Source: a virus. Taken from it: 33,057 nt of DNA. Positions 3,933-6,350 of the stretch are shown here, in pieces. The notes under the pieces are model-generated. The model was not told where the DNA came from. It saw nothing but the letters and a program-made list of their open reading frames with translations, and searched no databases. The DNA lies in the IMG/VR virus record IMGVR_UViG_3300036944_000085, positions 1-33,057 of that record; one strand, given 5' to 3'. Position 1 is the first letter of the stretch. Each line of letters opens with the position of its first letter. A program made the translations under genes and the position numbers.

Positions 3933-4123
3933 CTTACAAGACTGATCCTAAATGGCAGTGTGAGGGCAAGGACAAGCTGCCAACAAAAGAACTTGCGCAG
4001 GTCATTGTTGGTCGCCGCAGGGATAACCCAATGGAGGCTTACAAGTGTCCACATTGCGGCTGGTATCACGTTGGTCATGCAACGCCAAAGCAAAAAACTT
4101 TTAAGAGATCACCTAAAAAGTGA
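3929..4123 (+). CDS. Zinc-finger-like small basic protein
   Basis: A 64-residue, strongly basic protein. CPHCGWYHVGH (residues 40-50) has a CxxC-x3-H-x2-H arrangement typical of small zinc-binding phage proteins, and the tail TPKQKTFKRSPKK could contact nucleic acid. It overlaps the upstream gene by four bases. The likely -35 for the next promoter lies inside its last codons. Confidence 0.75.
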   Translation: MTYKTDPKWQCEGKDKLPTKELAQVIVGRRRDNPMEAYKCPHCGWYHVGHATPKQKTFKRSPKK

Positions 4124-4129
4124 TATAGT
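4101..4129 (+). promoter_or_regulatory. Sigma70-type promoter before the folded RNA
   Basis: TTAAGA (4101-4106), a 17-base spacer, then TATAGT (4124-4129) preceded by TGA, giving an extended -10. The predicted start, about seven bases on, falls at 4135-4137, exactly where the folded RNA begins. This is the best sigma70 match seen in the window. Confidence 0.55.
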
Positions 4130-4134
4130 GTTGT

Positions 4135-4200
4135 GAAACCCGGCTAGATACGAAGTCATGAGCGTATCGAAAAGCGAGCCTTCCCGCCTGCCGTAGTTTC
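4135..4200 (+). ncRNA. Candidate structured RNA (leader or sRNA)
   Basis: A 66-base element that folds as a closed multi-branch structure. P1 pairs 4135-4139 (GAAAC) with 4196-4200 (GTTTC) and, after a bulge, 4141-4144 (CGGC) with 4190-4193 (GCCG). P1 encloses P2, 4147-4152 (GATACG) with 4163-4168 (CGTATC) around a ten-base loop, and P3, 4174-4178 (GCGAG) with 4183-4187 (CCCGC) around CCTT with one mismatch. It sits right behind a promoter and 30 bases before the replication gene. There is no T-tract after it, so it looks more like a leader than a terminated sRNA. Confidence 0.6.
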
Positions 4201-4230
4201 TTTCAGTGAAGGACAGTGAATGGAAAATTT

Positions 4231-4977
4231 ATGCTTTTAAAGCCAAAGAATTGGGCCGTCTTTCAACACTACAAAGACCGCTGCCCACCATGGATAAAAC
4301 TCCATCGAGACATCCTAAATGACCGTGTGTTTATGTGCTTGCCACTTGCTAGCAAGGCGCTTGCACCTTTGCTTTGGTTGCTAGCGTCAGAGTCCAAAGA
4401 CGGCACTTTTGATGGCTCACTGGATGAGCTTGTGTTTCGGTTGCACATCACACCTAAAGAATATCAAGATGGCGTTAAGCCGTTGATTGATAAAGGTTTT
4501 TTTGTTGTTGCTAGTGGAGTGCTAGCAGATTGCTATCAAGATGCTATCCCAGAGACAGAGGGAGAGACAGAGATAGAGACAAAGAAAGAGAAGAAAACAA
4601 GCAATCGCGGTTCGCGCTTGCCAGCAGTGATTGATGATGTTGATTCTTGGTTTGAGTTTTGCGTTAAAGAACGTCCTGATCTTGTTGCATCAAAAGTATT
4701 TGCAGAGTTTAAGGATTACTGGATTGCACAACCCGGTCAAAAAGGCGTTAAGACTGATTGGACAGCAACATGGAGAAATTGGGTTCGCCGCCAATCAGCC
4801 CCGAAACAATCCTTTGCCCAACAAGCTGCTGACGTTGCCCGAACAACAGTCCCTGCCCAACACACTGGACCTGATCCTGTGCTGCTCAAGATTGAGGCTG
4901 ATCGACAAAAAGCAGCGCCAATGCCAGAGCATATTCGCCAGCAAATTAACCAAGTATTGAGGAAAGTCCAAGGGTAA
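4231..4977 (+). CDS. Phage replication initiator / replisome organiser-like protein
   Basis: A 248-residue protein. The N-terminus (LKPKNWAVFQHYKDRCPPWIKLHRDILND) and the following winged-helix-like stretch to about residue 95 resemble phage replication proteins that load the helicase. A polar linker (EGETEIETKKEKK) follows, then a second domain with WFEFCVKERPD, FAEFKDYWIAQ and TDWTATWRNWVRR, typical of the C-terminal part of DnaD or O-like proteins. The ATG at 4231 is preferred over GTG at 4216, whose AAGGA is only two bases away. The folded RNA upstream may control it. No helicase or polymerase gene is in the window. Confidence 0.72.
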   Translation: MLLKPKNWAVFQHYKDRCPPWIKLHRDILNDRVFMCLPLASKALAPLLWLLASESKDGTFDGSLDELVFRLHITPKEYQDGVKPLIDKGFFVVASGVLADCYQDAIPETEGETEIETKKEKKTSNRGSRLPAVIDDVDSWFEFCVKERPDLVASKVFAEFKDYWIAQPGQKGVKTDWTATWRNWVRRQSAPKQSFAQQAADVARTTVPAQHTGPDPVLLKIEADRQKAAPMPEHIRQQINQVLRKVQG

Positions 4978-5914: not shown

Positions 5915-6186
5915 AGCCTACTCGACAACAAGCCATACGCGAATGTTTGAGAAAACACGCACAAGGTCTGACAAGACATGAGTTATCAGAAATCTTGGGA
6001 ATTCATATTGCTAACGTCAAAACGGCCATCAAGGGTATGCCTGACGTTTATGTTGACAGGTGGTCACACGGCAAGCGAAATGCTTTCCAGAAGGTGTATT
6101 GCGCTGTTCATGTTCCTGAAGACTGCCCACACCCAAATGACCGTGTGTATGCAATTCCAAAGACTGTCTGGAGGCCATTGAAATGA
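5911..6186 (+). CDS. Helix-turn-helix-like small protein
   Basis: A 91-residue protein from ATG 5911, which overlaps the methyltransferase stop (ATGA). Residues about 4-45 (RQQAIRECLRKHAQGLTRHELSEILGIHIANVKTAI) look like a winged helix, followed by VDRWSHGKRNAFQKVYCAVHVP. The same layout, a short HTH with a beta wing, recurs in the next gene, so the two may be diverged relatives. It is probably DNA-binding. Earlier in-frame starts (5878, 5893) lack coupling. Confidence 0.72.
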   Translation: MKPTRQQAIRECLRKHAQGLTRHELSEILGIHIANVKTAIKGMPDVYVDRWSHGKRNAFQKVYCAVHVPEDCPHPNDRVYAIPKTVWRPLK

Positions 6187-6350
6187 GCAGAACACACGCA
6201 CTAAAGAAGTTGTTGGAGCATGGTCCTTTGACAAGACGCGAGATTGTCGAGATTACTGGCTGGAAAGCAAAGCAGGTCCATTTCACGCTGGCCTATCTTT
6301 CTCAGACTGGTGCAATTGTCAAACAAGAAAAAGCGTGGACATTAGGGTAA
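6183..6350 (+). CDS. Short winged-helix protein (55 aa)
   Basis: A 55-residue protein. KKLLEHGPLTRREIVEITGW, KAKQVHFTLAYLSQTGAIV and the final wing KAWTLG form a compact winged helix. Its ATG overlaps the previous stop (ATGA). A second small wHTH next to the first suggests a paired regulator or duplicated module. Confidence 0.75.
   Translation: MSRTHALKKLLEHGPLTRREIVEITGWKAKQVHFTLAYLSQTGAIVKQEKAWTLG

Follow-up and report, generated by a model that had tools for sequence, protein, structure and literature searches.

A structured RNA ahead of a freshwater phage replication gene as a candidate antisense regulator related to int-alpA

What does a small structured RNA do when it is placed between a promoter and a phage replication gene? 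The stretch of DNA analysed here, referred to throughout as the window (33,057 nucleotides), is a 33-kb freshwater phage record with genes for terminase, portal, capsid, Erf, NinB and a C5 methylase. Its rep gene (4231..4977; all features described in the window are on the + strand) codes for a replication initiator or helicase-loader-like protein that matches PHROG 26426, replication protein, with an E value of 8.4e-33. The ATG at 4231 is kept in relatives, nearly all of which have the N-terminus MLLQPKNWA, MLLKPKNWA or MKLIPKNWA, and the reading frame is also open from a GTG at 4216. An earlier note on this sequence had described a promoter-driven, non-coding structured RNA just upstream of rep, assigned it to no named class, and offered a ligand-sensing leader, an sRNA and a replication primer as its possible roles.

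A sigma-70 type promoter at 4101..4129 consists of TTAAGA, a 17-nt spacer and an extended -10 (TG-A-TATAGT), and because it ends at 4129 transcription should begin at the first bases of stem P1. In 73 of 86 elements the distance from the end of the -10 box to the first base of P1 is exactly 5 nt, in keeping with the earlier suggestion that a 66-base RNA starts at the position set by the extended -10. The RNA (4135..4200, 66 nt) forms a three-way junction in which the P1 5' strand (4135..4144; GAAAC, C, CGGC) pairs with the P1 3' strand (4190..4200; GCCG, TA, GTTTC) and encloses the P2 hairpin (4147..4168; GATACG-AAGTCATGAG-CGTATC) and the P3 hairpin (4174..4187; GCG-AGCCTTCC-CGC), the loop of which (4177-4184) is the proposed antisense sequence. 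RNAfold of 4135-4200 returns -16.0 to -17.2 kcal/mol, with 5+4 pairs and an internal joint in P1 and six pairs in P2, so that the nine-pair P1 with one joint and the six-pair P2 stand as first described; P3 has three clear pairs, and the five pairs claimed for it are reached only if an A.C mismatch is bridged. As the earlier note had it, 30 nt separate P1 from the conserved ATG of rep.

The folding energy is ordinary (z -1.42, with 21 of 200 shuffles folding as well), equally strong folding is seen in 24% of this genome's 70-nt windows, and with a z of only -1.4 energy was dropped as proof of structure. It is the comparison of relatives that decides, not energy, and judged by that comparison the structure is real. 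Rep relatives were confirmed in viral contigs in 324 cases and the best 80 of these were fetched; 78 of the best 80 have the element immediately ahead of rep, the other two (L125 and L134) being cut by the contig end, and 29 of 30 phage contigs carry one element each. Further elements, preceding a DUF1376 protein and an MPTRYLKPG-type protein (both presumed to act in replication), came from a scan for DNA patterns. Across inner P1, P2 and P3 in 35 distinct sequences, 94.0% of cells pair, compared with 75.9% in shuffles and 32-58% in slid structures, and double-sided changes occur in 11 of the 13 pairs, including all six of P2, with compensation in all three stems. A separate count, which extended to outer P1 and drew on 65 distinct elements chosen in advance for three or more pairs per stem (a choice that cost no complete Rep locus), agrees. 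The variants comprise GAAAC/GTTTC, GGAAT/ATTCC, CGGC/GCCG, CAGC/GCTG and TGGC/GCCA in P1, and GCG/CGC, GTG/CAC, GAG/CTC, GGG/CCC and GACG/CGTC in P3. The comparison of homologues that the earlier note had proposed as a check thus finds stems with compensatory changes rather than a pattern of unpaired substitutions. The junction bases CUAG, GAAAAG and CCUG are conserved in the relatives, and a model built from these relatives (R1), one training row of which is identical to the window, scores 86.5 bits at 4132-4203.

The centre of the P2 loop in the window (4153-4162) is the self-complementary CATG, and the P2 loops of relatives fall into a few interchangeable types, mostly with a self-complementary centre (CATG, GATC, AATT, AGCT or GGCC), the type being unlinked to that of the P3 loop. 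We speculate that P2 is a structural arm, possibly forming a kissing dimer through its palindromic loop.

A whole-window Rfam scan at the gathering threshold found no match, and a known Rfam class at that threshold was therefore rejected. In a 211-base search (4050-4260), the RNA matches int-alpA (RF02996) at 4137-4212 with 35.4 bits and an E value of 4.5e-6, covering model positions 1-71 of 71 and falling 0.4 bits below the family's gathering score of 35.8 bits. The view that the RNA belongs to no named class is therefore not sustained, and on sequence and fold it is a diverged, sub-threshold relative of int-alpA. As in that family, P1 closes two hairpins in the same fold, with CUAG after P1, CGAAAAG between P2 and P3, and CCUG before the P1 3' strand. 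The window RNA differs from int-alpA in P3, which is GCGAG/CCCGC or, elsewhere in the group, quite other sequences, and in the GAAAC/GTTTC extension of P1, and the phage elements differ in standing before replication initiators and in having a weak U-run after P1. The name int-alpA reflects a setting near integrase and alpA genes, which the window RNA lacks, as it precedes a replication gene in a window with no tyrosine integrase. Canonical int-alpA members (for example L209 and L205) are weakly detected by R1. Rfam lists int-alpA as an sRNA gene, and a 2017 paper is said to be its source. We found no published function for int-alpA, which is mentioned in a table of predicted sRNAs, and an earlier proposal is possible; the accession RF02996 was not found named in the literature searched.

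The interval from P1 to the start codon of rep contains short boxes, usually two, complementary to the P3 loop. In the window, box 1 (4208..4212; GAAGG) is the complement of CCTTC in the loop (4179-4183) and box 2 (4222..4225; GGAA), which lies at the rep ribosome-binding region, is the complement of TTCC (4181-4184). At 5 nt and 4 nt these boxes are weaker than in most relatives, which counts against an antisense reading. In most relatives box 1 begins 5-9 nt past the inner strand of P1, and the distance from the end of the last box to the start codon is most often 3-11 nt. Examples include the loop TTCGTTAC with boxes GTAACGA and ATAACG, TTCTTCAC with GTGAAG and GATGAAG, TTCACCCTTT with AAAGGG and GGTGAA, and ACTCCC with GGGAGT and GGAGT. 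At least two boxes of at least 4 nt are present in 47 of 54 distinct loop and leader pairs, compared with 19% after loop swapping. The two-box sum for a leader's own loop is 10.33, compared with 7.03 ± 0.43 for permuted loops, and none of 20,000 permutations is as high (0/20,000), the 21 loop classes used being not fully independent, since some loops resemble one another. Nine new loop types held out from this count and recovered with a second Rep query all have two boxes summing to 10-14 nt (9/9), where the means for other loops are 5.5-7.7; a smaller held-out parse, of too few loci and with three loops only, gave P = 0.33. The most frequent loops (AGCCTCCC type) are similar to the anti-Shine-Dalgarno sequence, and part of the box match is therefore expected for any ribosome-binding site, but the match is unexplained by this likeness in the loop classes TTCGTTAC, TTCATCAC and TTCTTCAC.

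Sister phages with closely similar Rep proteins have different P3 loops, each with its own boxes, despite Rep identities of 98.8% (L164 and L169), 98.7% (L193 and L200), 97.1% (L142 and L143) and 95.2% (L154 and L165), and in such loop-switched pairs the promoter is the same or nearly so and P1 is similar. In these comparisons loop and boxes co-evolve across sister phages, a finding that is new in this analysis. Interchangeable antisense specificities would be expected to show such a pattern, and a binding site for Rep in DNA would not.

A similar arrangement is seen in bacteria. Canonical int-alpA RNAs were found in Zoogloea, Rhodoferax, Duganella, Laribacter, Marinobacter, Pluralibacter and others, and the double box is present in most of those fetched (from Zoogloea, Rhodoferax, Duganella, Laribacter and Pluralibacter); most of the bacterial RNAs L204-L221 have two loop-complementary boxes, the second being at the ribosome-binding region of the next gene. 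One has the loop AACCTTCACC with TGAAGG twice, another has AAACCCTACC with TAGGG and AGGGT, and the diverged L085 has the loop TGGTT with AACCA twice. Obvious boxes are absent in L027, L056 and L218, which speaks against the antisense reading, and a few others have one box or shorter boxes only. The genes following canonical int-alpA RNAs are diverse, and the RNA therefore seems to control whatever follows.

There are four int-alpA matches in one Rhodoferax genome and three in one Zoogloea genome. Phage contig L127 has a second int-alpA-like unit (6146-6206) with a different loop, ATTCATCAC, and boxes to match, and this unit precedes an HNH-AP2 homing endonuclease gene.

We propose that the RNA at 4135-4200 is a self-encoded antisense regulator of rep that represses the replication initiator in a manner resembling C4/CI, a reading to which the sequence comparisons lead us to give a probability of about 0.66. 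Transcription would start at P1, and part of the transcripts would end or be cut after P1 to yield a free RNA of ~70 nt; since no intrinsic terminator was found directly after P1, this release is an assumption. The P3 loop of the free RNA would then pair with box 2, box 1 or both on full-length rep messages, blocking the ribosome and reducing Rep synthesis. As the number of genomes rises the level of RNA would climb and initiation would be damped, and an incoming phage would be restrained only if it shared the loop-box type. Among the roles offered originally, a promoter-driven non-coding sRNA is thus the one that gains support, and it probably sets replication.

The layout recalls that of the C4 and CI RNAs. 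Both P4 CI and phage P1 C4 match the Rfam C4 family (RF01695), to which the window region 4050-4260 has no match up to an E value of 5; C4 acts on ant. The C4 RNA of phages P1 and P7 is processed from a larger transcript by RNase P and is a trans-acting translation repressor, one loop of which covers a downstream ribosome-binding site, and the phage P1 and P7 RNAs differ in a few loop bases that give specificity (PMC5320573); P4 CI keeps replication genes off via antisense-dependent termination (PMC4825925). The RNA described here is likewise a small three-stem RNA from the leader of the gene that it would control, and as in C4 it has an exposed loop complementary to a downstream ribosome-binding region, clearly so in the phage group and weakly in the window (5 and 4 nt), with a few loop bases setting specificity; the difference between the phage P1 and P7 RNAs recalls the loop switches in the present phages. 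It differs in that C4 has two targeting sequences (a' and b') whereas here one loop faces two boxes, in that C4 needs an RNase P cut of a longer precursor whereas the present promoter starts at P1, so that no 5' processing is needed, and in that P4 CI works by transcription termination whereas the present RNA is proposed to block the ribosome. It thus has C4/CI layout and logic without a match to the C4 sequence model. Plasmid antisense RNAs of the CopA/RNAI type are also small RNAs limiting an initiator gene or primer, but they are opposite-strand transcripts fully complementary to the target, whereas the present RNA shares its strand with the target, which it matches in short boxes only.

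A search for tyrosine integrases came up empty in the window and in 14 contigs (30-41 kb) that have the element before a replication gene; the contig list also took in chance pattern matches and L060, which has a canonical int-alpA RNA and does carry a tyrosine integrase. Serine recombinases were absent from 18 contigs, the window included, and two circular records called complete (Manatee Spring), which have the same gene plan as the window, have no integrase annotated. Against the Rhodoferax order, which may not be that of the host, the Rep protein gave three matches in 399 genomes, all partial, and R1 gave none in 300 genomes in a search run without a positive control; a prophage form of these phages was rejected on these counts. 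Because no integrase was found in the window or the 14 related contigs, copy-number feedback or superinfection exclusion seems likelier than classical lysogenic immunity.

If the antisense reading is correct, logic of the C4/CI type would act on the initiator of phages seemingly without an integrase, where immunity RNAs are unexpected. Pairs of sister phages that differ in loop-box type while their Rep proteins are nearly identical would be natural specificity variants, and int-alpA would gain a concrete function, the control of whichever gene follows by an antisense loop co-evolving with its two boxes. More tentatively, and with the odds somewhat against it, these freshwater phages could be a widespread group without integrase that carries RNA-coded specificity groups. 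A self-made antisense RNA would then shut off the initiator of any genome of its own loop-box type, so that replication is fed back upon and superinfecting phages are excluded with no need for lysogeny, and int-alpA as a whole would be a second and independent kind of C4/CI-type immunity RNA.

The main rival reading, which could accommodate the same data, is a cis-acting leader. Here the P3 loop and one of the two boxes of a single transcript would form a pseudoknot hiding the ribosome-binding region, with no free trans RNA and with timing or host state shifting the balance. The boxes directly follow the RNA on its own strand, an identical co-evolution signature is expected, and neither a terminator nor a processing site was found after P1. 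However, two boxes for one loop are unneeded in cis and suit a regulator acting in trans, the concerted change of loop and boxes among phages that are otherwise nearly identical is better explained by immunity or incompatibility groups than by a purely internal switch, and the C4/CI precedents work in trans; we therefore consider a cis-acting leader unlikely, although it deserves to be taken seriously. It is highly improbable that Rep or a regulator binds boxes and loop as iterons or operators in DNA, with the loop match a DNA repeat: the boxes are indeed short direct repeats beside a replication gene with the loop as an inverted copy, but Rep proteins that are 97-99% identical go with unrelated boxes, on which account DNA iterons for Rep were rejected, and moreover the loop is always shown on a covarying RNA hairpin and the same design stands before genes without a known replication role. 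The ligand-sensing (riboswitch-like) leader and the replication primer would suit the position before the replication gene and the compact three-way junction with conserved CUAG, GAAAAG and CCUG, but we give them scarcely any credence, since what co-evolves is the boxes and the variable loop of P3 rather than a conserved pocket, the nearest named family is an sRNA gene in Rfam, nothing links the RNA to an origin, and the module is also found before an HNH homing endonuclease gene and genes without a known replication role.

The antisense reading concerns an interval that is occupied by other RNAs in related phages. In the second Rep set, 63 distinct complete promoter-to-rep slots were sorted by pattern into 29 of the int-alpA type, 24 with a double-pseudoknot RNA and T-run terminator, and 10 with neither; L275, among the last ten, has a two-hairpin type also seen in MW202710. 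The int-alpA type slot of L178 shares 39-43 identical bases upstream with the double-pseudoknot slots of L237 and L291, and the modules have therefore been swapped. The presence of the double-pseudoknot RNA there indicates that the interval from promoter to rep is a place for RNA control in these phages.

The double-pseudoknot RNA is ~105 nt long and is found at L230:890-1000 and in L234, L236-L242, L258, L263, L283, L306, L319, L327, L334, L343 and others, giving at least 26 distinct copies, mostly in the promoter-to-rep slot and also before several different genes. A CTTGGCGG loop pairs with CCGCCAAC (invariant) and a second loop pairs with its upstream strand and covaries; the RNA also has a long closing stem and, immediately ahead of the start codon, a T-run terminator. 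Pairing is seen in 99.3% of 769 cells and double-sided changes in 23 of 43 pairs, the first pseudoknot (TTGGCG/CGCCAA) being invariant in the alignment and so outside the covariation support. This RNA was not found in the window, the members tested have no credible Rfam match, and it is undescribed. In both L195 and L288 rep is preceded by the int-alpA type, and a double-pseudoknot RNA stands elsewhere, in front of a different gene.

A third type of RNA upstream of rep, in L229 (4104-4216) and L275, has two long hairpins followed by a terminator. Its 7-nt loops are mutually complementary (GGUUCAG/CUGAACC in one and GGACAAG/CUUGUCC in the other), and the L229 RNA folds with a z of -7.4.
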